DNA of 22,477 bases from a virus: positions 1-22,477 of the IMG/VR virus record IMGVR_UViG_3300010885_041673. One strand, given 5' to 3'. Positions 7,703-22,477 of this stretch are shown here, piece by piece; within the stretch, counting starts at the first letter, position 1; each line of letters starts with the position of its first letter. The notes under the pieces are model-generated. The model did not search any database. It saw only the letters and a list, made by a program, of their open reading frames with translations, and was not told the DNA's origin. A program made the position numbers and the translations under genes.

Positions 7703-7765
7703 TCAGTTCTCTAAGCCTTCTGGTGCTTCTGTTATCCATGTGGTATTGAAATCTTGCCTACTCAT
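7703..7765 (-). CDS. Mini-ORF coupled to nrdB, possible gene remnant
   Basis: A 20-residue frame, MSRQDFNTTWITEAPEGLEN, starts with an ATG overlapping the nrdB stop (ATGA) and ends in TGA at 7703. The 'TWITEAPEGL' beginning resembles the start of several short T4-like phage proteins, so this may be the N-terminal stump of a lost gene or a real micropeptide. There is no independent evidence for expression. Confidence 0.3.
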   Translation of the reverse strand: MSRQDFNTTWITEAPEGLEN

Positions 7766-8862
7766 AAATCTGGCAACTCCGTGAAGTCTACTTCATTGCT
7801 CATCACACCAATCACATAGTTGGTGCTTTCCGATTCTTGCAATGCAGTTTGTTTCTTGCTGATATTGCTGTGCTTGTTGAACCACGGAATAGGATTCAGT
7901 TTTGGGTGATCTTCCAAATACTTGATACGAATATCTTTGAGCTTGATAAACGCTGTGTAGTCTACAAAATCTCGCAGAATGGCTGCATTTAGACCAATCA
8001 CCACGCCTTTTTGAAACAGATAATCAGCCCAAGATTTTTCTTCTTGAATCACTTCCATGTACATGGCATAAACTTCATCTGCACATTCTGTTTCCAGTTG
8101 CAAAAAATCAGGATCATCTTTGGTGACGTTGTTGATCAACCAAGCAGTCCACTCAGAATGCAACATTTCATCTTGTAGAATCAAGCTGATGATGTTGCCG
8201 TTGCCAATGAAAATCTTGTTTTCAACCATAGCCAGGCTAGTAGCAAAACTCACCATAAAACGCAGTGCTTCTAGTGCATAACTGGCATGTAATGCTAGCC
8301 AAATAGCTCTCTTGTGGTCATAAATCGGAACATCTTCACCTAGTTCTTTACGACAGTTCAGTTGATGCAATTGTTCGTAGTATCTGCCAATGTTGGCAGC
8401 CATTTTTACAATTTCATCAGTGTTGTGAATTGTGTTGAACTCTTCTTTGGGCACGCTGTAGATATTGCGAATGATATGGCTATAACTCTTGCTGTGAATG
8501 TTGGTTTCAAACATTGTCCAAATCAACGTCAAAGCTTCCAATTCTGGCAAACTACATACTGGACTAAAAATCTGATAGGGCGCACGGCCTTGGATACTAT
8601 CCAATGCAGTTTGTCGCAACAAATTGCTGGTAAAAATGTGCTTTACCGCTTCGCTGGCTTCTTTGTGATCAATCTTGTCTTTGGTCAGGCTGATTTCTTC
8701 AGGTACCCAGAAAAAGCCACGCTGCAGTTCTTCAAACTTCTGCAGCTTGTTGTATTTGACCTCCTCAAACCTCTGGACCACTACTGGACCAGCAGGATCT
8801 AGAAACATTTTTCTATTTAAGTAATCTGATTTTTTACTTAAATCATATTGTGCTTTGCTCAT
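7762..8862 (-). CDS. nrdB: Class Ia ribonucleotide reductase small (beta) subunit NrdB
   Basis: A 366-aa radical-generating beta subunit that pairs with NrdA to reduce ribonucleoside diphosphates. By comparison with E. coli NrdB, the di-iron ligands and radical Tyr are visible: Asp88 in ALDSIQGR, Glu119 and His123 in FETNIHSKSY, Tyr127 (Tyr122 of E. coli), Glu198 in YALEALRF, Glu232 and His235 in DEMLH. The C-terminus (IGVMSNEVDFTELPDL) is the tail that docks on NrdA. E. coli has E-x-x-H at the second ligand pair; here it is E-x-x-x-H, a one-residue insertion, while Tyr stays at H+4. The start has a strong GAGGAAG upstream. It follows nrdA and a homing endonuclease remnant and precedes glutaredoxin. 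Confidence 0.95.
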   Translation of the reverse strand: MSKAQYDLSKKSDYLNRKMFLDPAGPVVVQRFEEVKYNKLQKFEELQRGFFWVPEEISLTKDKIDHKEASEAVKHIFTSNLLRQTALDSIQGRAPYQIFSPVCSLPELEALTLIWTMFETNIHSKSYSHIIRNIYSVPKEEFNTIHNTDEIVKMAANIGRYYEQLHQLNCRKELGEDVPIYDHKRAIWLALHASYALEALRFMVSFATSLAMVENKIFIGNGNIISLILQDEMLHSEWTAWLINNVTKDDPDFLQLETECADEVYAMYMEVIQEEKSWADYLFQKGVVIGLNAAILRDFVDYTAFIKLKDIRIKYLEDHPKLNPIPWFNKHSNISKKQTALQESESTNYVIGVMSNEVDFTELPDL

Positions 8863-8872
8863 ATCTTCCTCA

Positions 8873-9025
8873 TTAATGCTTATGAAATCTTGTTAGCCCG
8901 GCTCGATTTGTTTCTTTTTTACATATTATACAGCAAACTCTACTTTTAGCAGGATTATTTTCTAACCAATGGAACTCGCCTTTTTCTATTTGATTTTTTA
9001 ATCTTTCAGAGTGACTCGTTTTCAC
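8873..9025 (-). pseudogene. Homing endonuclease C-terminal remnant between nrdA and nrdB
   Basis: Just after the nrdA stop, in another frame, the sequence reads TSHSERLKNQIEKGEFHWLE, NNPAKSRVCC, IICKKETNRAGLTRFHKH and stops. The motifs 'ER.K..IE.G.H.W..NNP' plus a Cys-x2-Cys...His-x-His finger are the C-terminal DNA-binding region of GIY-YIG/HNH homing endonucleases of T-even-type phages. No nuclease domain is present, so this looks like the tail of a decayed element. An ATG at 9052 inside nrdA could start a short ORF, but those first residues are the nrdA end read in another frame. T4 carries mobE at the same nrdA-nrdB position. Confidence 0.55.
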
Positions 9026-9026
9026 C

Positions 9027-10061
9027 TCAAAGCTTACAAGCCATACAATCATTTTCCTCTTCAATGACATCTATTGTAGCAGGAACCAACTCTGAGTTCA
9101 CAGTATTCTGGTTATCTAGAACACTCTTGGCACCTGTTTTGTTTATTAACGAATAGTATATTGTCTTTAAACCATACTTGTGAGCCAGCATCAGATTCTT
9201 GGCGATCAGTGTTCCTGGCACTTTACCATCAGCAAAGTGCTTGGGTGAATAGAATGTGTTGGTACTGATGCTTTGGTCAATATACGCAGCTAGCACTGCT
9301 GCTGTTTTCAAATAATCAATACAGTCAGTTTGATCCCACATCAGTTGGTAACGATTGCGCAGTCTCTTGTATTCTGGCACAACCTGCACAAAGCTGCCAG
9401 CCTTGCTTTCCTTCACTGAAATCAGTTCCATAGGCATTTCAATGCCATTGGTGCTGTTCAAGGCAACGCTACTGCTTTCTACAGGTGCAACTGCCATAAG
9501 CGTAGCGTTGCGAATTCCATATTGCTTTAATCTTTCACGCAGAGTTTCCCAATCAAGTGTCGGTGTGAAATCCGTGAGTGTATCAACATTTGCATTGCGA
9601 CGTTCCCATGGGAACACACCACGACCATACCAAGTGTTGGCGCTGCGTTCACAAGCACCGCGTTCTTTGGCTAGGTCGATACTGGCTTCTGTGAGATAAT
9701 AAGCCTGATGTTCCATGAATCGCTTGACCATGGCTAATGCTTCTGGTTCACCGTATTTCATGTTGCGCTTGGCTAGAAAAAAAGCAAGATTAGTGATACC
9801 AATGCCTAATGGTTCAAAGTCCTTATTTGCCAAACGACTTTGTACACTGAGAAAATCTTGATAGCCCAGCAGATTACTCAGACTGCGCACCAAGATTCTG
9901 CAAGCCTTGCGCATTTCTTGCGGATTTCGGAAACTTCCCCAATTTATTGAGCCGAGTGTGCATAAAGCCACTCTGCCCTTTTCTTCTTCAATTTCGTAAT
10001 ATTCGTATTCATCATCTAACTCCTCAGGTAGACATTCTATTTCTTCATACAGTTCGTTCAT
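9027..10061 (-). CDS. nrdA: Class Ia ribonucleotide reductase large subunit, C-terminal half (NrdA-b)
   Basis: A 344-aa protein matching the second half of NrdA, from the second active-site Cys (Cys34 in VALCTLGSINWG, E. coli Cys462) through the radical-path tyrosines (YYSLINKTG, residues 302-303, E. coli Tyr730/731) to the C-terminal redox pair (Cys339, Cys342 in DCMACKL, spaced CxxC rather than CxxxxC). It starts with its own ATG and a TTTGGAG ribosome site 7 bp upstream. The first 28 residues carry 14 acidic and one basic side chain and do not match ordinary NrdA. The first half of the enzyme is encoded separately at 11008-12474, and the two must assemble to work. Its ATG overlaps the stop of the upstream mini-gene. 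Confidence 0.93.
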   Translation of the reverse strand: MNELYEEIECLPEELDDEYEYYEIEEEKGRVALCTLGSINWGSFRNPQEMRKACRILVRSLSNLLGYQDFLSVQSRLANKDFEPLGIGITNLAFFLAKRNMKYGEPEALAMVKRFMEHQAYYLTEASIDLAKERGACERSANTWYGRGVFPWERRNANVDTLTDFTPTLDWETLRERLKQYGIRNATLMAVAPVESSSVALNSTNGIEMPMELISVKESKAGSFVQVVPEYKRLRNRYQLMWDQTDCIDYLKTAAVLAAYIDQSISTNTFYSPKHFADGKVPGTLIAKNLMLAHKYGLKTIYYSLINKTGAKSVLDNQNTVNSELVPATIDVIEEENDCMACKL

Positions 10062-10193
10062 TTTTCAACTCCAAAATGTTCTTTAATCTCGTTAATAATA
10101 TGGTTGACATCATTAGGTGGAGCCCAATCAAACCGATTTCCCGATCTGTGCGTTTTCAATTAAATTGATATAGTCTCTTATATTTTTGTTCAT
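10058..10193 (-). pseudogene. Frameshifted mini-gene between homing endonuclease and nrdA-b
   Basis: An ATG at 10193 overlaps the endonuclease stop (ATGA) and reads MNKNIRDYINLIENAQIGKSV to a TGA at 10128. In the +1 frame the text continues as GNRFDWAPPNDVNHIINEIK, EHFGVEK and stops in an ATGA overlap with nrdA-b. The two parts look like one small phage protein of about 44 residues, broken near an AAAA run around 10150. Removing one A would join them. It may be a true frameshift mutation, a sequencing or assembly error, or a programmed shift. Function unknown. The overlaps at both ends suggest it was once part of the coupled unit. Confidence 0.5.
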
Positions 10194-10954
10194 ATTCTCT
10201 TTCCGTATTTTGTGATTAGGTAATAACTTTTACCTGTTGCGTCTTTTGCTTCTGCAATACTGTCATATACAATACCATCATACTCAATTTTTACTGCTTT
10301 GGGATGATCGCCACCTTTAACAGCCAATTCTTTTAGTTGTTGACTTCTTTCTTCTTTAGTCATAAAAACATATTCAACAGGCTCATATACTACATCACGC
10401 TTGTTGGTTAACTTTTTACATTTATAACCTTTATACATACTCTTTCTGCCACGAGCAACCGCACTCATAGCACTTGCATTTAAGTTATGTTGACGACAGA
10501 ATTCAAGCATATTAATAATCAATAAAACTTCGTTAGCAGGAGTGATAACTTCCCATTCATCTGCTAATTTAAGTTTTTGCTCAACTTTCATTGCTTTACC
10601 TTTGTTACTAATTTCTAGACCATTTGCAAATCGTTGTTTTCTAGATTCAGATATTTTAGGACCATTACCGCAATCACCTCCACCTGCATTAGGAGCGATA
10701 TTATAATACAATGAACTTTTAGCACACTTATATGTGTCCAAATAAAATTGTTCTCTTAATAAGATATCTTCCTCTTTTTCAATGTATTCTACTATTATTC
10801 TTTCAAAATTTTCAATACCGTATTTTTTTATTGCATTTCCGAACCGTTTTCCGCTACCGGTATATCCATCGTCTATAGTACCTTTATGTGATCCCAAATA
10901 CTTTATACCATCTATTTTATTTGTCCATTCATATATAAAACCTGAGTAGTTCAT
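10190..10954 (-). CDS. GIY-YIG homing endonuclease inserted in nrdA
   Basis: A 254-aa GIY-YIG family endonuclease. The nuclease domain occupies about residues 4-95: GFIYEWTN and YLG (residues 19-21) form the GIY-YIG core, with YTGSGKRFGNAIKKYG containing the conserved Arg and Glu68 (LLREQF) the likely metal-binding Glu. Residues about 133-180 (EWEVITPANEVLLIINMLEF, then LNASAMSAVARGR and GYKCKK) and 218-250 (KAVKIEYDGIVYDSIAEAKD) are NUMOD-type DNA-binding modules. It probably cleaves an uninterrupted nrdA and copies itself there. It has its own GATAAATA promoter and AGGAGG, so it is a free-standing gene rather than an intron ORF. It is full length and appears intact. Confidence 0.92.
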   Translation of the reverse strand: MNYSGFIYEWTNKIDGIKYLGSHKGTIDDGYTGSGKRFGNAIKKYGIENFERIIVEYIEKEEDILLREQFYLDTYKCAKSSLYYNIAPNAGGGDCGNGPKISESRKQRFANGLEISNKGKAMKVEQKLKLADEWEVITPANEVLLIINMLEFCRQHNLNASAMSAVARGRKSMYKGYKCKKLTNKRDVVYEPVEYVFMTKEERSQQLKELAVKGGDHPKAVKIEYDGIVYDSIAEAKDATGKSYYLITKYGKRI

Positions 10955-10972
10955 ATGTGCCTCCTATACAGT

Positions 10973-10980
10973 TATTTATC
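10973..10980 (-). promoter_or_regulatory. Candidate late promoter of the homing endonuclease (GATAAATA)
   Basis: GATAAATA on the minus strand lies 18 bp before the ATG at 10954, with a strong AGGAGG (10960-10965) 5 bp before the start. T4 homing endonucleases are also commonly driven by their own late promoters. This site would also allow separate transcription of nrdA-b after the split. Confidence 0.5.
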
Positions 10981-11007
10981 ATTACTCTGTACTTTGGGCA
11001 CATTAAA

Positions 11008-12474
11008 CTATCTGGCTTTTCTAATGGATACAATATCTGTTGATATATTTTTCATAAACTTATCTATATTAGTTTTCTTAACTTTGATTAGTTTTTTCTT
11101 AGGTTCTAACCGTTGGAACGGCTTGGTGGGCAGCAGAATCTCTTGACACAAATTGCTTTGATAAATTGGATCTGTTTCTGTGTCGAATGGCCCTTGGTTG
11201 ATCACATTATCGATATTGACCAAATAAATACGACCAGTGTCAGTGCGTTCCTTGAGAATACCGTTCTTGAATATTTCTTCAGCACGAACAGTTTTCTTTT
11301 TTATCTCAGGCGTTGTTTCATATTTGACATACAGTTCTTCAAATCTCTGAGTATCACGATAAAAGGCTTCATATAAATCAGGCACATCGTGTGGGTCAAA
11401 CAGTGTGATGTTTTCACCGTTCTTATAGCGGCGCCAAAACATTGCATTGACAACAACACTATAATCCATTTGACGAACACGAGTTTCTTCTGTGCCTTGA
11501 TTGTTTTTCAGCACGATCAAATCTTCAAACTGATAATGCCAAATTGGAAAAGTCACCGTGCAACTTGCATTGCGCAGGCCACCCTGGCTGCAACTGCGCA
11601 GATCAGCAAACCATTTTTTCAAGAAGGGAATCAACCCAGTATGCTTGATTTCACCGTTACGAATCGGTGCACCCACTGGTCTGATCCTGCCTATTTCTAG
11701 ACCAATGCCTGCGCGTTTACTGGCATACTTGGCCATCATCTCGCCAGCAGCAAATATACTGTCCAGAGTATCATCACTGCTTATCAACACGCAACTGCTA
11801 AATTGCTTAGTAGGTGTGCCTAATCCTGCCAAAACTGGAGTAGCCAGCGTAAAATGGCCTTCACTAGCGCATTCATAATATTCTTTGACTAATTTTAGTC
11901 GAGTATCAGCAGATTCAGCGTGAAATGCAGTGGCAGCAGCAACAGCATAACGTACCTGAGGTGTTTCATAAATTTGACCAGTAGCTCGATTCTGAACCAA
12001 ATACTTTTCAGTCAACTGAGCAATAGCAGCATAAGCGTAGTTTTCATCTTTGCTGTGGTCTATAAACAAATCAATGATATTCCATTCATCTTCTGTATAC
12101 CATTGCAGCAATTCCGGCGTGTACATGCCGACTTCTACGTTGCGACGCACGATTTCATATAATTTGGGCGGATCATACGTACCATAAACTTCTTTGCGTA
12201 ACATGCTAACTCGCTGACGACCAGCAACATACTGATAGTTGGTGTTGTTGATTTCAGGATTTTCTGATTCATCAATCAAATTCACCATTGCTTTCAATAA
12301 TAGTTCGTCAATAACTTCAGTGCTGATGCCATCATGTAGTTCGATCTGAGCCTTGATTTCAATCATACTGGGACTCACACCTTCTATGCCTCTGCAATCA
12401 TGGGCTACTTGTCTTTGAATTTTGCTGATGTCTAATGGAACACGCTCACCGTTGCGTTTGATAACTTGAATCAC
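11008..12474 (-). CDS. nrdA: Class Ia ribonucleotide reductase large subunit, N-terminal half (NrdA-a)
   Basis: A 488-aa protein. Residues 1-90 form an ATP cone (IQVIKRNGERVPLDISKIQ) for allosteric activity control. The catalytic barrel follows, with the first redox Cys228 in FSSCVLI (E. coli Cys225) and N441/C443/E445 in NLCQE (E. coli N437/C439/E441, the thiyl-radical site). Homology ends at LPTKPFQRLE (residue 457). The last 31 residues are foreign and basic (KKKLIKVKK, then RKAR; 11 basic, 2 acidic). The start codon is GTG, with GAGG about 10 bp upstream; no ATG fits. The second half is encoded at 9027-10061. It follows a conserved hypothetical gene by 15 bp. Confidence 0.93.
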   Translation of the reverse strand: MIQVIKRNGERVPLDISKIQRQVAHDCRGIEGVSPSMIEIKAQIELHDGISTEVIDELLLKAMVNLIDESENPEINNTNYQYVAGRQRVSMLRKEVYGTYDPPKLYEIVRRNVEVGMYTPELLQWYTEDEWNIIDLFIDHSKDENYAYAAIAQLTEKYLVQNRATGQIYETPQVRYAVAAATAFHAESADTRLKLVKEYYECASEGHFTLATPVLAGLGTPTKQFSSCVLISSDDTLDSIFAAGEMMAKYASKRAGIGLEIGRIRPVGAPIRNGEIKHTGLIPFLKKWFADLRSCSQGGLRNASCTVTFPIWHYQFEDLIVLKNNQGTEETRVRQMDYSVVVNAMFWRRYKNGENITLFDPHDVPDLYEAFYRDTQRFEELYVKYETTPEIKKKTVRAEEIFKNGILKERTDTGRIYLVNIDNVINQGPFDTETDPIYQSNLCQEILLPTKPFQRLEPKKKLIKVKKTNIDKFMKNISTDIVSIRKAR

Positions 12475-14524: not shown

Positions 14525-14950
14525 TTATGCGTTTCTTGCTGCTCTCTTTGCCATGCTAGAAACAGTTTTTTCTGGTGCAGTTTTAATCGCGTCAGCAGCA
14601 TCGCCAGTTTTTGGCATTTCATCAGTGGGTTCTATTGGGTTGATAAAGACATATTTAATGCCTTCGTCATTATCTTTGATATCTCCGATTAGATTTTGAA
14701 CTATTTGATTGTTTTTCTTGGCATACATCAATGCATCTAAATCAAAGGCTTCCCCGCCTGGTTGTGATTTTACTAATTCTACCAGCGCATCCACACGAAT
14801 CTTTGGTATTTCTGCGTGTTCTGCGTTGAATTGCAATTCATGCAAAATATTAACCAACGCAGTATCTGATATACGTTCAGCATCGTCTTCAATGTAGTCG
14901 CTGAGTTCGCGATCTTCGTTGATCGCTTTGATTATTTCTCTAAAACGCAT
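14525..14950 (-). CDS. Conserved phage hypothetical protein paired with scaffold-like gene
   Basis: A 141-aa mostly helical protein: MRFREIIKAINEDRELSDYI, LVNILHELQFNAEHAEIPKI, RVDALVELVKS, NNQIVQNLIGDIKDNDEGIK and YVFINPIEPTD. No catalytic motif is seen. The N-terminus has the M(R/K)..EI pattern resembling a T4 capsid-targeting peptide, with INE|D as a poor cleavage site. Its ATG overlaps the upstream stop (TAATG), so it is coupled to the 229-aa virion/scaffold-like gene and may be a partner of it in head assembly. The tail is Ala/Lys/Arg-rich, suggesting nucleic acid contact; that is inference. Confidence 0.6.
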   Translation of the reverse strand: MRFREIIKAINEDRELSDYIEDDAERISDTALVNILHELQFNAEHAEIPKIRVDALVELVKSQPGGEAFDLDALMYAKKNNQIVQNLIGDIKDNDEGIKYVFINPIEPTDEMPKTGDAADAIKTAPEKTVSSMAKRAARNA

Positions 14951-17421: not shown

Positions 17422-18522
17422 TTACTGGTTAACGACTCTGCCTGCGAAGTTTGCCGCGCTAAACACGCCACGATTGACTAATTTAATTATTCCAGACGGA
17501 GTATTGATAACAAAACCTTCACCTTTGGGTTGCCCATCAACAAATTGTTCGATGCCACGCACTTGGGGTTCTAGTTGTTCTAAAATGCCTAGTTTAAGTT
17601 GATAAATTTTAGTCCAAATTTCTTTGATGCCTTGTACCGCTGTTTGATTCTCTACAGCAGTTAAAATAGCATATTGAGGCTTTGTAAGCTTACTTGCTAA
17701 CCAATTATCATCAACAGGTTGATTTGTTATCAATCGATTATAATATGTTTGCAGTGAGCTTTTACTTGACGCAGTTAAACTAGTCAATAATGAATCTGCT
17801 GCAGAACCATATTTTTTTATTGCTTGATAAGCAGCTTTTACCAATTGCACTGGTTCTTTGACGCCAAATTTAATACCGAGATTTCCTGTTAAAATAGCAA
17901 CAGTTTTAGAAGCAACTAATCCTCCTGCACCATTTAAAGGCTGTTTTCCTACCAATGGGCTTTCTTTGGATTGTTTTTCTAGATCTGACCCGTAAGTATG
18001 TACAGCAATACCAATTTGTCGCCCAGCAATTTGTTTACCTAAGTCTGATTTTGAATCCACTGCATAAGTTACGCCATGTGGATTAGCTTTAAATACAAAC
18101 TTACCTTGCTGTGGCTGCAGTGCTGCTGACCACATTAGGTCGCCCATAACAAAACCTTTAAAACTGGCTGGCACTATCGTGCTTAATGGAGTAAAAATTT
18201 CTGCTAGCTTGTTTGCAAGCTCCATGTTTTTTTGTCGATCAGAAAAAAACTGCAATAACTCTTGGGGCGTAGTGACTTGACCGCCAACGTCAGCTATGTA
18301 TTCTTTATAATTCATGGTGAATTTTCCATCAGCTGATCTTCTACCAAAGATAATGGCTGGAAATCCATCCCACTTAATAGTCACTGCATCTGGACTGCTG
18401 ACTGCAGCCACAATGCCATCCACAGCTTGTTGAGCAGATTGACTACCTTGAAAAATAAAATCTTCAGGGTGAGGTGTTCTAGCACCTTCTGTTAACGTTT
18501 GAATAAACTCAAATATTTTCAT
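17422..18522 (-). CDS. KxDG ligase-like protein (resembles phage family DUF6267), possible virion protein
   Basis: About 366 aa from the ATG at 18522; the longer frame begins at TTG. Motifs resemble covalent nucleotidyltransferases (DNA/RNA ligases, capping enzymes): motif I VTIKWDGFPAIIFGR with the candidate nucleophile Lys50 in KWDG, then FVMGDLMW (about 124-131, like motif III), GEGFVI (334-339, like motif IV) and IIKLVN (about 345-350, like motif V), ending in FSAANF. I recall the same order in a T4-like phage family, DUF6267, of unproven activity. The first residues, MKIFEFIQTLTE|GA, resemble the T4 capsid-targeting peptide with an (L/I)xE|(A/G) cleavage site. It overlaps the upstream nucleotidyltransferase gene by 14 bp. 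RNA or DNA joining is inference. Confidence 0.65.
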   Translation of the reverse strand: MKIFEFIQTLTEGARTPHPEDFIFQGSQSAQQAVDGIVAAVSSPDAVTIKWDGFPAIIFGRRSADGKFTMNYKEYIADVGGQVTTPQELLQFFSDRQKNMELANKLAEIFTPLSTIVPASFKGFVMGDLMWSAALQPQQGKFVFKANPHGVTYAVDSKSDLGKQIAGRQIGIAVHTYGSDLEKQSKESPLVGKQPLNGAGGLVASKTVAILTGNLGIKFGVKEPVQLVKAAYQAIKKYGSAADSLLTSLTASSKSSLQTYYNRLITNQPVDDNWLASKLTKPQYAILTAVENQTAVQGIKEIWTKIYQLKLGILEQLEPQVRGIEQFVDGQPKGEGFVINTPSGIIKLVNRGVFSAANFAGRVVNQ

Positions 18523-19537
18523 CTGCAAACATTGCCTTTACGTAATCCAAACCCTGCATGATCTTGCGCTTATCTTCTTCAGCACGAGCAATAGCCTCCG
18601 GAGTTGAAGCTTTATCTCTTTTTTTAGCATTGATTTCTTTAACAGCTTTGGATTCATAATTTTCCCAAAATCTGTTTAAAAAATCTATTTTGTTACGATA
18701 GTTAGCTAAATCTCCCTTGCCGTACATATTATTCATTTGAAAACTTTCAGCCATGCCTTTTATCGCTTTGGCAAGATTGCTGATCTTGATTTCATCAACA
18801 TCACTGCCTGGATACTGCTTTAATAGACCAGAGATTTTAGGATTTTGAATACCTGCCATTTCAGCTTCGTGTTTGAAAATATCCAACACAAAATTTTCAA
18901 TATCGGTGGTAAGAGTGACCAATTCATAATTCTTACGAGTAGTAGAATAAGGCTGCTTGACTCGATCTCTGACCTTAAATTGAACACCAGCGTGTTGAAT
19001 ACTCATGGTCAACATCTCACCTAATACACTGAACATGTTGCCGTTCAACAAGCCTTTTAATCCGCGCTCAGGAGTAACACGATAACGTCCCCATTTTTCT
19101 AATCTTTGTGGATGAATCATCATGTCAACCTGGACCCATGCATCATCTGCTATTTTTAAAATAGGATGTCCAGCCTCACTATCAGAATGTATGTAATCCG
19201 GACGGGTTTCTTTGACAAATTGATCTGCTAAATTGTACCATTCAGATTGCATCTGACTTGTAGTTTTATTTTCTGTACCCGAATCAGGCACCACAATCTG
19301 AAGATCAATGTCACCGTAAATTTTATCTTCAGGGTCTACATCATGATATGTACTGCTGCCTGTTGGGGCACCCATTTTAACTGTGTCGAAGCCTTTCTTT
19401 TGAAGCCAATCATTGAACTCAGAAATAAAATGTTGCATTTTATGCAGAGCAATTTTGACAACTTTTGGAGTGACAACTGTCTTTTGAGTTACTTCAGTAT
19501 CCCACCCACCTTCTGATATTATTTCATGAAATCTCAT
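18509..19537 (-). CDS. Polymerase-beta-type nucleotidyltransferase, possibly virion-packaged
   Basis: A 342-aa protein. It has the signature of the pol-beta nucleotidyltransferase fold: a Gly-Ser pair (G60-S61 in GAPTGSSTYHD), then GDIDLQIVV with Asp76 and Asp78, and a third Asp138 in AWVQVDMMI. The gap between GS and DxD is longer than usual. After about residue 240 the protein is helical and charged. It starts MRFHEIISE|GGWD, which fits the T4 capsid-targeting peptide and prohead-protease site IxE|G. Its ATG overlaps the stop of a second, unrelated-looking nucleotidyltransferase. The substrate is unknown; tRNA, nucleotide or antibiotic-like transfer are all possible for the fold. Confidence 0.75.
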   Translation of the reverse strand: MRFHEIISEGGWDTEVTQKTVVTPKVVKIALHKMQHFISEFNDWLQKKGFDTVKMGAPTGSSTYHDVDPEDKIYGDIDLQIVVPDSGTENKTTSQMQSEWYNLADQFVKETRPDYIHSDSEAGHPILKIADDAWVQVDMMIHPQRLEKWGRYRVTPERGLKGLLNGNMFSVLGEMLTMSIQHAGVQFKVRDRVKQPYSTTRKNYELVTLTTDIENFVLDIFKHEAEMAGIQNPKISGLLKQYPGSDVDEIKISNLAKAIKGMAESFQMNNMYGKGDLANYRNKIDFLNRFWENYESKAVKEINAKKRDKASTPEAIARAEEDKRKIMQGLDYVKAMFADENI

Positions 19538-20289
19538 ATTTTATCCAATAAATTTCTAAACCAAACAGCAGTACCAATTCGGCGTGATTCATGTAGTTTA
19601 ATTAGTCCTTTGGCTTCATCATCTCGTGCTTGGGATAGTTTGGCATCTCTGTCAGGGTCGCTTGCCAATGCTTGCAATATAGATTTTACACTGTCTAAAT
19701 CCGAAGGTTTAGCATCTTTATTCAGCAGTATTTTGGCAGCATCAGCACGATTGTCAGCGACCACAGTGTTGTCATCTCTGCGCATGACTTTGCCAGCAAA
19801 TGCGTCTGTTTTAAGACCAAGAAATTTACCTATGCTGTTTAGCAAAATAAACAAATGTGCAGCTTTGAAATCAGGATCTTTATACATACCACGAGGACCA
19901 TGTTGATGCCAGTCTGCTACACGCTTGGCATCTACTATCACCATTAGATCTACTTGGGCACGACGTTCACCGCCTGGCGTGTTATAAGGCACTTCAACGT
20001 GAACATTTCGGCCTACAGTTTTAGCAAGATAGCCTTTGTGTTTCATGAATGCTTCTAATTCTTTTTTGGCTGATTTTTCATCAGCAGATTTGAAATAACT
20101 CATGACATCATTGGCATCTAAGAAAATGTCTATATCACCGCTTTCTACTTTATAGCCAGCAGAACCAATATCAGCAACTGAGGCAATTTGACTTGGCAGT
20201 TCTGACTGAACTTTTTTGACTATGCCGTTGATGTATTCTCGTTTGACTGCACCGTCGCCGAATACATTTCCGCTTTCCGTTAATTTCAT
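19534..20289 (-). CDS. Polymerase-beta-type nucleotidyltransferase
   Basis: A 251-aa protein with a typical nucleotidyltransferase signature: IGSAGYKVESGDIDIFLD (G42, S43; Asp52, Asp54), and a third carboxylate in RRAQVDLMVIV (Asp114). The GS-to-DxD spacing is the usual one, unlike the neighbouring 342-aa protein. A segment with HGPRGMYKDPDFKAAHLFIL follows. It starts at the ATG at 20289, overlapping the upstream stop (ATGA), and its N-terminus, MKLTE|SG, has only a weak match to the packaging/cleavage pattern. Two such enzymes plus a ligase-like protein in one coupled unit suggest a shared nucleic-acid task. Substrate unknown. Confidence 0.78.
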   Translation of the reverse strand: MKLTESGNVFGDGAVKREYINGIVKKVQSELPSQIASVADIGSAGYKVESGDIDIFLDANDVMSYFKSADEKSAKKELEAFMKHKGYLAKTVGRNVHVEVPYNTPGGERRAQVDLMVIVDAKRVADWHQHGPRGMYKDPDFKAAHLFILLNSIGKFLGLKTDAFAGKVMRRDDNTVVADNRADAAKILLNKDAKPSDLDSVKSILQALASDPDRDAKLSQARDDEAKGLIKLHESRRIGTAVWFRNLLDKI

Positions 20290-21992
20290 TGGCTTCTAGC
20301 CTTCTTCAATTTCTTGCAAAAATTACTATATTCGTTTTCTTCATGAATATATTTTTTTGCGATTAAATTTTTATTTTCATATGCGCCAACGGCTAATCCT
20401 AATGCTTGTTTAGCTGCCATAATATCTGGTAACCTAATTTTGTTCTCTGGTGTGCCTGCAGCTAATTGATCTAGAACCTTGGCTACTGCTTCAGGAACAG
20501 CGTTGCCGGAATCGTCTAGCCATTTTCTTGGTACATAAACTTGAAATATAGGCTTTTCTTCTACATCTGCCTTAACTTGAAATATAGGCTTTTCTTCTTT
20601 ATCTACCGATGCTTCAGCTGGAATACCCATATTCTTGTACAATGTATCGATAATCGTTGGATCCACGCCCACATCTTGTAAAACTTTGTGTATTTTAACA
20701 CTGTCTGTTGGATTGCCAGCTTTCTTTAGAGCTTGTTGCAATTTATCTGGTGTAACTTTTTGAGTTAGATTTTGACCTTTGGTTTTGAGCCAATTACCAA
20801 TGCTACCGGTGATATCTTTGAGAGCTTCGTTTGTTAGTTGGAAACCGTTGCGTGGTTTTCCCAGAGTTTCATTCAAATGCCACATCTTAATGGTAAGGTC
20901 GCGATCAATATATTTCTTTGGATTGAAGAATATTGATTCTTCAAAGTCTTCAACGTTCTCACGAGAACTAGCAGTGGACACTTGCTGCTGGGCAGTCAAT
21001 GCCTGCCCGGATGCGAATTCGCGGGCTTGCCGCAGGGACTGTAATTGTTCCGGCGTATAAAGTTCTTGAGGCACAGGTTTCCTGTCAATTTCGACCGGAA
21101 CGTCACCAACTAATCGTGCATTATGGTTAAGACCATTCAATCCCATCCTCTCAGCAAAATCGTTAATAAGCGCAGAGTCAGCTTCTGATTTAGCAGCACC
21201 GCGTTCCAGCTGGCGACGAGATGACTCCCACCGTGTATCAGATTCTGGCGGTTGTTCGCTGGATTGTTGATCAGCATCAGATTTTCCTTGCGTCTGATCC
21301 AGTGCACCACTGACTGCTGCACCAGCCATATTGCCTAATGCACCACCTGCTGCGCCAACAACTGCTCCGGCAACGCCTGATTTTAATGCTGATTTCCAAT
21401 CTTGACCTTGTAATTTAGCAGCAGCTATTGCCAATAAACCGCCGGTGACGCCACCAGCCAATGCTGCTCCAGCAGGACCGGCAAACATCATTCCGAGTTT
21501 ACCGGCAACAGGCGCTGCTGCACCACCAATAGCAGCCAAAATCATTTTTTGTGCCATCGGTGATTTCATGCCTTGTTGGATCATCTGCATAGCAGATTTT
21601 TTAGCTGCTGGATCTTTAATATTATTGACTGCTGCTGTTGCCTTACTTTCAAATTCGCTGACTTTGCCAGCATCAGCTGGCGGTAGCTCATCATAAAACT
21701 TTTTCTTTATAGCGTCTGGTAATAACCTGCCTACCTTAGTAGAATTAGGGAGGTATGCTTGTGTAGCTTGAGCAGCAACGATAACTAAACGATTTATTTG
21801 TTCTTGTGATAACTCTGCTTCTGTCAAAAATACATTTTCAGAAAGATATTTGATATATGGCACAACAAAATTTTCGTGCATATTTTTAAGATATCGTTGT
21901 GTTAAGCGATCTGTGTTGCTGCCTAAATTTTCAAATAGTTCTAGACTATGTTGTTCTGACAACATTTGTTTTATAATTGTTTTCGTATTCAT
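20286..21992 (-). CDS. Large protein with Gly/Ala hydrophobic core, possible ejected virion protein
   Basis: About 568 aa, starting at the ATG at 21992 (MNTKTIIKQML), chosen for a GGAAAAG ribosome site and because the longer frame would overlap the upstream gene by 38 bp. The N-terminal part is helical and holds FLTE|AE (residues 55-60), a good (L/I)xE|(A/G) prohead-protease site. Residues about 151-230 are very rich in Ala and Gly (AAIGGAAAPVAGKLGMMFAG, AGAVVGAAGGALGNMAGAA), like glycine-zipper membrane segments. After this come Gln/Ser/Glu-rich linkers and two copies of a KPIFQV motif near 490. No enzyme motif. A pore-forming or internal virion protein is possible but unproven. Confidence 0.6.
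   Translation of the reverse strand: MNTKTIIKQMLSEQHSLELFENLGSNTDRLTQRYLKNMHENFVVPYIKYLSENVFLTEAELSQEQINRLVIVAAQATQAYLPNSTKVGRLLPDAIKKKFYDELPPADAGKVSEFESKATAAVNNIKDPAAKKSAMQMIQQGMKSPMAQKMILAAIGGAAAPVAGKLGMMFAGPAGAALAGGVTGGLLAIAAAKLQGQDWKSALKSGVAGAVVGAAGGALGNMAGAAVSGALDQTQGKSDADQQSSEQPPESDTRWESSRRQLERGAAKSEADSALINDFAERMGLNGLNHNARLVGDVPVEIDRKPVPQELYTPEQLQSLRQAREFASGQALTAQQQVSTASSRENVEDFEESIFFNPKKYIDRDLTIKMWHLNETLGKPRNGFQLTNEALKDITGSIGNWLKTKGQNLTQKVTPDKLQQALKKAGNPTDSVKIHKVLQDVGVDPTIIDTLYKNMGIPAEASVDKEEKPIFQVKADVEEKPIFQVYVPRKWLDDSGNAVPEAVAKVLDQLAAGTPENKIRLPDIMAAKQALGLAVGAYENKNLIAKKYIHEENEYSNFCKKLKKARSQ
20538..20598 (-). repeat. 25-bp direct repeat, period 36 bp, in the large Gly/Ala-core gene
   Basis: Bases 20538-20562 and 20574-20598 are identical (aacttgaaatataggctttt...). 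The period is 12 codons, so the protein gains EEKPIFQV twice in frame. The perfect match suggests a recent duplication. Confidence 0.85.
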
Positions 21993-22017
21993 ATTATATC
22001 TTTTCCAATCTATACGC

Positions 22018-22477
22018 TCATGGATTATATGTAAACGTTTTTCCACCAAACGCATTGGGTGTAAGTTTTGTACCTGGCGCTGGTGTTACAGGTGCAGCAG
22101 GCGTAGTTGTACCTGGCGCTGGTGTTACAGGTGCAGCAGGCGTAGTTGTACTTGGAGATGCTGCTCGGCCTGCTGCACTCATACCTGCTAGCATTGCATT
22201 GCTGGCTGCAGATTTTTGTGCCTGGCGGCGTGCTGCACTCATACCCGGTACCATCTGATTGCTGGCTGCAGTTGTCTGTACTTGTTGCGCTGGCTGCGTT
22301 GTTTGGCTTCCAGCGCTGGGTGCTGTAGTTTGTGTTTGGCGATAAGCGTTGGATGCATTTGCATTCATAGCCTGACCTACAACTTGCGTTATGTATTTGT
22401 TGACTGATTTTTGATCTTCTATTTGATCTGTTGCTGGATCAACTATTATTCCAGCTGCTGCTGGATCAGGTACATCA
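22018..22477 (-). CDS. Ala/Pro/Thr-rich repeat protein (partial, cut by right edge)
   Basis: The frame is open to the right edge; an internal ATG at 22368 is unlikely to be the true start because the same frame continues upstream (VPDPAAAGIIVDPATDQIED). The visible part has near-copies of 'SNxMxxGMSAAxRxA' (at about 75 and 96 residues from the edge) and PAAPVTPAPGT twice near the C-terminus, ending GGKTFTYNP. Low complexity, no catalytic motif. It stops 26 bp before the next ATG, so it heads the block of putative virion proteins. The role is unknown. Confidence 0.6.
   Translation of the reverse strand, partial: DVPDPAAAGIIVDPATDQIEDQKSVNKYITQVVGQAMNANASNAYRQTQTTAPSAGSQTTQPAQQVQTTAASNQMVPGMSAARRQAQKSAASNAMLAGMSAAGRAASPSTTTPAAPVTPAPGTTTPAAPVTPAPGTKLTPNAFGGKTFTYNP
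22070..22147 (-). repeat. 39-bp tandem repeat, two copies
   Basis: Two identical 39-bp copies (gtacctggcgctggtgttac...) at 22070-22108 and 22109-22147, followed by a partial third. The unit is 13 codons and encodes TTPAAPVTPAPGT-like repeats in the C-terminus of the partial gene. Confidence 0.9.

Follow-up and report, generated by a model that had tools for sequence, protein, structure and literature searches.

A phage nrdA gene divided around a GIY-YIG endonuclease, with oppositely charged new protein ends, and its relation to the system of Aeromonas phage Aeh1

The closest described system is that of Aeromonas phage Aeh1, whose nrdA gene for the large subunit of ribonucleotide reductase is interrupted by the gene of an HNH endonuclease, MobE. 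The two products, NrdA-A and NrdA-B, form an active (alpha-a + alpha-b)2 beta2 enzyme complex (PMC3267527). As far as the literature found shows, an nrdA gene in pieces with docking tails was previously known from this one phage. Gene 43 of Aeromonas phage 44RR is split without an endonuclease, and I-TevI, segB, and Aeh1 mobE are described as being controlled by a hairpin over the ribosome-binding site (PMC2988022). The stretch analysed here, called the window, comprises positions 1 to 22,477 of IMG/VR virus record IMGVR_UViG_3300010885_041673, and its source phage is a freshwater one. It carries nrdA in two parts with a GIY-YIG endonuclease gene between them. It is highly probable that its class Ia ribonucleotide reductase large subunit is made as two polypeptides of the "genes-in-pieces" kind found in Aeh1, the new ends of which pair without splicing.

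NrdA pieces and their new ends

NrdA-N, the GIY-YIG endonuclease, NrdA-C, and nrdB follow one another in this order of transcription on the minus strand of the 22.5 kb viral fragment (Table 1). Pfam matches to the ATP-cone, Ribonuc_red_lgN, and barrel positions 1-222 fall on NrdA-N, and those to barrel positions 220-430 on NrdA-C. The catalytic residues of both pieces are all there and invariant among the split relatives in the alignment. In our own alignment they correspond to residues C225, N437, C439, E441, C462, Y730, Y731, C754, and C759 of E. coli R1. An earlier, sequence-only reading had described nrdA as two proteins of 488 and 344 amino acids (aa), with the insertion located after the radical Cys and before the second active-site Cys, and with every catalytic residue retained. 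The open reading frames (ORFs), a comparison with an unsplit copy, and the alignment of split relatives bear out these three points.

The unsplit copy, on IMG/VR contig L074, is nearly identical to the window gene and has an empty site (aa identity of 99.6% for NrdA-N, 95% for NrdA-C, and 98% for NrdB). DNA identity breaks at 11111 and restarts at 9962, with 1148 nucleotides (nt) in the window and 31 nt in L074 between these points, so the tail of NrdA-N and the head of NrdA-C are borne by the insert. When the pieces were aligned with intact NrdA of L074 and of Xanthomonas phage X1, the nearest cultured relative, similarity ended at residue 457 of NrdA-N and restarted at about residue 28 of NrdA-C. 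Matches of the two pieces in phage X1 are 6 nt apart. The acidic head had been suspected to be partly native NrdA, which is not so. By comparison with L074 it is essentially all new, and a native origin is conceivable for at most the final 2-3 residues (26-28). Neither end is present in any of the unsplit NrdA sequences listed, in which the loop length is constant.

The first count of charges, 11 basic and 2 acidic residues in a 31-residue tail and 14 acidic and 1 basic in a 28-residue head, was confirmed (+11/-2 for residues 458-488, -14/+1 for the first 28 residues). Among 378 ORFs of these phages, a C-terminal 31-mer of at least +5 was found in 7% and of at least +9 in 0.3%, and an N-terminal 28-mer of -12 or lower in 1%. 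Such ends are rare, and the charges are thus not a matter of chance. Net charges are opposite in every split pair, with tails of +5 to +9 and heads of -12 to -15 in the window type (type A) and +6/-10 in Aeh1.

Searching IMG/VR with the endonuclease, an NrdA piece, one tail, and one head brought up about 30 additional contigs that share the tail, the head, or both. In one of them, L098, half of the endonuclease, the whole of NrdA-C, and NrdB are 100% identical to the window. The same break, for which the sequence-only reading had advised looking in related genomes, therefore recurs, and a sequencing error is ruled out. Short-query tblastn of the tail and head in the phage collection gave no match, but the Aeh1 head missed Aeh1 too, so this is not a valid negative. 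Ratios of nonsynonymous to synonymous substitution rates (dN/dS) were 0.07 (tail) and 0.04 (head) in the larger group of relatives, A1, and 0.01 and 0.11, respectively, in the smaller group, A2. Judged by these substitution patterns, both ends are under purifying selection at the protein level. The ATG and Shine-Dalgarno sequence of NrdA-C are also conserved. A second nrdA was not found in eight split-gene records of 36-372 kb, which may be incomplete, and the split enzyme is for this reason probably the sole NrdA. A broken pseudogene on its way out, in which the split inactivates NrdA, would agree with the frequent decay of interrupted genes and with the broken cargo gene in the same slot. 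This explanation is very improbable in view of the invariant catalytic residues, the strong purifying selection on the native parts, and the lack of a backup nrdA in records of up to 372 kb.

If the insert were a group I intron with a GIY-YIG ORF, of the td/I-TevI type, the two halves would be exons joined in RNA. Phage group I introns do harbor GIY-YIG endonucleases, such introns are frequent in nrd genes (PMC3653736), and the leader of the endonuclease is strongly structured. However, the group I intron model RF00028, which recognizes the T4 td intron used as a control with an expect value (E) of 2.5e-8, had no match in the insert at E up to 10. Only the E-value mode is informative here, as the gathering mode of Rfam misses the T4 td and nrdB introns. 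In L134, the endonuclease and cargo are lost, both ends are intact, and 7 nt lead from the NrdA-N stop to the NrdA-C start. L082 and L083 have no intervening bases at all, the stop of the endonuclease overlapping the start of NrdA-C. The evolution of tail and head is moreover that of protein sequence, and the start codon and Shine-Dalgarno sequence are conserved. Splicing at the RNA level, which the earlier reading had raised against itself, can thus be given hardly any credence. Splicing of the proteins by a split intein, with tail and head as its halves, has in its favor the real split inteins elsewhere in nrdA of relatives L222, L221, and L139, and a second type of tail at the same site that resembles intein block B (see below). 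Against this, the tail and head of the window had no intein match in profile searches, there is no Cys/Ser at the tail junction and no His-Asn at the head junction, and the combined 31 + 27 aa are far below the length of any intein, which leaves a split intein very improbable.

Table 1. Coordinates of the divided nrdA gene, the inserted unit, and the neighboring nrdB in the window.
Feature	Position	Strand	Description
NrdA-N (nrdA-a)	11008..12474	-	488 aa, GTG start; ATP cone, all-alpha domain, first barrel half; C228, N441, C443, E445
New basic C-terminal tail of NrdA-N	11011..11103	-	Residues 458-488, PKKKLIKVKKTNIDKFMKNISTDIVSIRKAR, net +9; not in unsplit NrdA, conserved in split relatives
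RNA hairpin enclosing the endonuclease ribosome-binding site (AGGAGG 10965-10960), bordering its ATG	10948..11009	-	-18.8 kcal/mol, z -5.0
T4-late-promoter-like GATAAATA	10973..10980	-	Within hairpin loop
GIY-YIG endonuclease	10190..10954	-	254 aa; Pfam GIY-YIG E 2.4e-4, slightly below curated cut-off
Endonuclease C-terminal half, presumed DNA-binding	10208..10654	-	Residues 101-249; 32% identity, E 3e-19, to MobE 87-229 of Aeh1
Cargo remnant	10058..10193	-	5' end of one small phage gene (MNKNIRDYINLIENAQ) fused to 3' end of another (..EHFGVEK), frame broken
Shine-Dalgarno GGAG of NrdA-C	10069..10072	-	
New acidic N-terminal head of NrdA-C	9981..10061	-	Residues 1-27, MNELYEEIECLPEELDDEYEYYEIEEE; not in unsplit NrdA, near-invariant in split relatives
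NrdA-C (nrdA-b)	9027..10061	-	344 aa, ATG; second barrel half; C34, Y302, Y303, C339, C342
nrdB, small subunit, partner enzyme	7762..8862	-	Pfam

Mobile unit in the nrdA loop

The invader had been taken for a GIY-YIG endonuclease from its sequence alone, and the Pfam match and an alignment with I-TevI agree with this. The conserved Glu and Asn are there in that alignment, and the placement of the Arg is uncertain. Between its nuclease domain and that of MobE (GIY-YIG versus HNH) no similarity was found. A scan of bacterial and archaeal genomes yielded no relatives of the endonuclease. The hairpin in front of its gene was matched by no shuffled sequence and is conserved in 12 sequences. Contig L136, with another endonuclease, has a different hairpin of comparable strength (z -4.5), and Aeh1 has an unrelated one at the same place (z -6.6). 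The motif [TG]ATAAATA occurs at six sites in the window, on the gene (minus) strand only, and four of the six precede a gene start by 19-50 nt, a placement suggestive of T4-like late promoters. The slot between the endonuclease and NrdA-C is empty in L082, holds one or two small phage genes in L088, L137, and L138, or contains other small ORFs. Intact copies of the cargo genes of the window are in the same slot of L088, L137, and L138.

Split and unsplit copies are intermingled in a tree built from the native N piece, where the window forms a pair with the unsplit L074. The type A split label needs at least 14 changes on this tree, six of them forced by well-supported branches. The endonucleases of the window and L082 are 87% identical, while NrdA-N is just 72% identical. 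By the tree and these identities, the split unit is mobile.

A homing unit composed of tail codons, late-controlled GIY-YIG endonuclease, cargo, and head codons would have entered nrdA at the loop that links the two strands bearing the active-site cysteines. Cutting of unbroken nrdA there, presumably by the endonuclease, would be followed by repair that copies in the complete unit, so that the adapter ends would arrive together with the invader. The points from which tail and head depart are 2-3 residues apart in the native chain, within the loop that connects the radical-Cys strand with the second-Cys strand. The Lys-rich tail strand KLIKVKK and the Glu/Tyr-rich head strand EYEYYEI could lengthen these two strands toward the outside and be zipped together by their charges. 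Paired in this way, side by side, the ends would hold the two half-barrels together with no splicing. The hairpin, with the late promoter in its loop, would keep the endonuclease silent on the long nrd transcript.

Some neighboring sequences deserve mention. An ORF of 65 aa at 8873-9070 on the minus strand overlaps the nrdA-C end, has CxxC..HxxxH near its own end, and resembles a leftover of another endonuclease in the nrdA-nrdB gap. The same gap contains HNH-like ORFs in L219 and L221. Among the minus-strand ORFs at 14525-14950, 17422-18528, 18509-19537, 19534-20289, and 20286-22055, several begin with a short leader that has an (L/I)xE site at its end (MRFREIIKAINE, MKIFEFIQTLTE, MRFHEIISE, MKLTE, and IIHE, recognized by eye). 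We take these proteins to start like T4 internal proteins and to be candidates for capsid packaging and prohead protease cleavage. Two of them presumably resemble nucleotidyltransferases. A cargo gene of the slot, MNKNIRDYINLIE, has by eye the same start.

Adapters without invader and in other combinations

Type A ends are kept without an endonuclease in L134, L137, and L222, and to judge from these contigs the adapter outlives the invader. Elsewhere, type A ends enclose one of three endonuclease families: the GIY of the window, the GIY of L136, or the GIY usual in type B (L138, L219). In L097, type B ends enclose a relative of the window endonuclease. By these combinations, adapter and endonuclease are separable.

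Type B is a second, unrelated adapter splitting nrdA at the same loop, with a 46-aa tail and the head MKI[IV]KKE[CT]. Its tail has a charge of -5/-6 and its head one of +3, a polarity opposite to that of type A. It was found in L026 (5623-6629), L097, and L117-L130, of which L129 is a contig of 372 kb. In L122 and L123, the type B adapter is kept and most of the endonuclease is deleted. The tail resembles intein block B, with PF14890 matches (E 0.004-0.13) that fall each time on the same positions of the profile, and it gave weak matches in a PDB profile search, including the gp41-1 intein at E 1.0. We take the head to resemble the start of an intein C half. By the Pfam/NCBIfam matches, which are weak though consistent among themselves, the tail might be derived from an intein. 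On L026, a permuted transfer-messenger RNA (RF04321, 80 bits) lies at 11426-11652, on the same contig as the type B split nrdA.

In L222, L221, and L139, nrdA is also broken further upstream by real split inteins. The N half, of about 19 residues, follows SC and reads CVTPDTWVEVLDEDNSIDK to its stop (L222, L139), and the C half, of about 135 residues, ends with LTHN before SQGG. L222 (14-3669) combines this split intein between SC and SQGG with the type A break, and its type A slot is reduced to 45 nt with a cargo-gene remnant. L221 (250-3062) has the same combination, in a contig that starts after the N half. In L139 (37-4943), nrdA is in at least four pieces. Two tandem split inteins flank the 8-residue exon SQGGIRNA, a type A tail follows, and the last NrdA piece is beyond the contig end. 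The breaks of L139 hold three endonuclease-like ORFs, one GIY-YIG-like, one uncharacterised, and one of the L136 GIY family. Rebuilding one enzyme from these pieces would need double trans-splicing plus docking.

The pieces could also assemble via the native barrel interface alone, the ends being selfish baggage (stop/start signals or homing passengers). A large barrel interface survives, and the ends do travel with the homing unit. This explanation is nevertheless improbable, given the purifying selection on the protein sequence of both ends, their retention after endonuclease loss in L134, L137, and L222, and charges that are complementary in every case, including the unrelated type B with its reversed polarity. 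The tails of Aeh1 were, moreover, reportedly essential for activity in the 2011 work of Crona. Pairing of the new ends is preferred, and several points weigh against it. The two native half-barrels might associate without new ends, and cleavage of nrdA by the window endonuclease is presumed by analogy with its Aeh1 and T4 relatives. Contigs of the relatives are fragmentary. AlphaFold models of the single pieces, made from 15-row alignments, were poor, with a mean predicted local distance difference test (pLDDT) score of 55 for NrdA-C and 43 for NrdA-N and mostly below 50 for tail and head, and were left unused. The likeness of the Aeh1 NrdA-B head to the window head is weak in sequence (p 0.03 when anchored, p 0.30 when unanchored).

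New here are ends that persist without an endonuclease, three endonuclease families in the slot, variable cargo, an unrelated type B adapter, and an nrdA in at least four pieces. A broader reading, offered tentatively and with slightly less than even confidence, is that tail and head form a self-sufficient adapter selected for enzyme cohesion, which makes the loop a safe slot where endonucleases and cargo turn over and the adapter stays, and that a second adapter with reversed charges evolved there from intein remnants. If this is true, phages would have in protein-level adapters a general means of tolerating breaks in essential genes. Together with its relatives, the window makes up a set of about 30 natural variants, which differ in endonuclease (three types or none) and in the presence of cargo, and which include a second type of adapter at this loop. 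It is therefore testable whether such ends let an essential enzyme survive fracture and whether opposite charge suffices. It is testable, too, whether adapter pairs are exchangeable or usable as non-covalent protein-joining tags.

Relation to Aeh1 and other interrupted phage genes

Aeh1 and the window are broken at the same codon. The N pieces of both align to the unsplit L074 up to residue 457, and the C pieces resume at residues 453-456. The Aeh1 NrdA-A tail, KKEKMLFKVKKSEVDKFKLMVATDQYKSLRY, aligns with type A tails with no internal gaps (shuffle z 5.8, p 3e-4), and among 2816 Aeh1 ORFs, NrdA-A is the top match of a type A tail profile (E 0.13). The C-terminal tails of the two systems are homologous, and both are basic. 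The heads are both acidic and of similar length, with sequences that are barely alike. The C-terminal halves of MobE and the window endonuclease are homologous, whereas the nuclease domain is HNH in Aeh1 and GIY-YIG in the window. Homing endonucleases would thus swap the nuclease domain, with the target site and the DNA-binding half unchanged. Both systems have a hairpin over the endonuclease ribosome-binding site, and neither is an intron. Unlike Aeh1, the window has a cargo remnant between the endonuclease and NrdA-C. Because the insertion site, the tail, and the DNA-binding half of the endonuclease are homologous to those of Aeh1, the charge pattern is regarded as an inherited feature. Aeh1, cited at first as a precedent, is in these respects more than an analogy.

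The T4 td intron with I-TevI is similar in its GIY-YIG endonuclease, late promoter, and hairpin over the ribosome-binding site (PMC2988022), but the window has no intron, and its host gene is split at the protein level. Gene 43 of Aeromonas phages 25 and 44RR, also an essential gene in two polypeptides beside a GIY-YIG (seg) endonuclease (PMC2988022), differs in being another gene. The "fractured genes" of Dassa et al. 2009 (cited in PMC3653736) likewise have a free-standing endonuclease between the halves, and nrdA is among the hosts. There, a split intein is at the break, unlike in the window. In Vibrio phage S4-7 (KX507046.1, 41926-43682), the match to NrdA is divided into two pieces and its first half contains about 400 extra nt, which is another interruption, at a site different from that of the window. 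Compared with these systems, the locus is best read as the same mechanism in a system homologous to that of Aeh1, with the nuclease domain exchanged.

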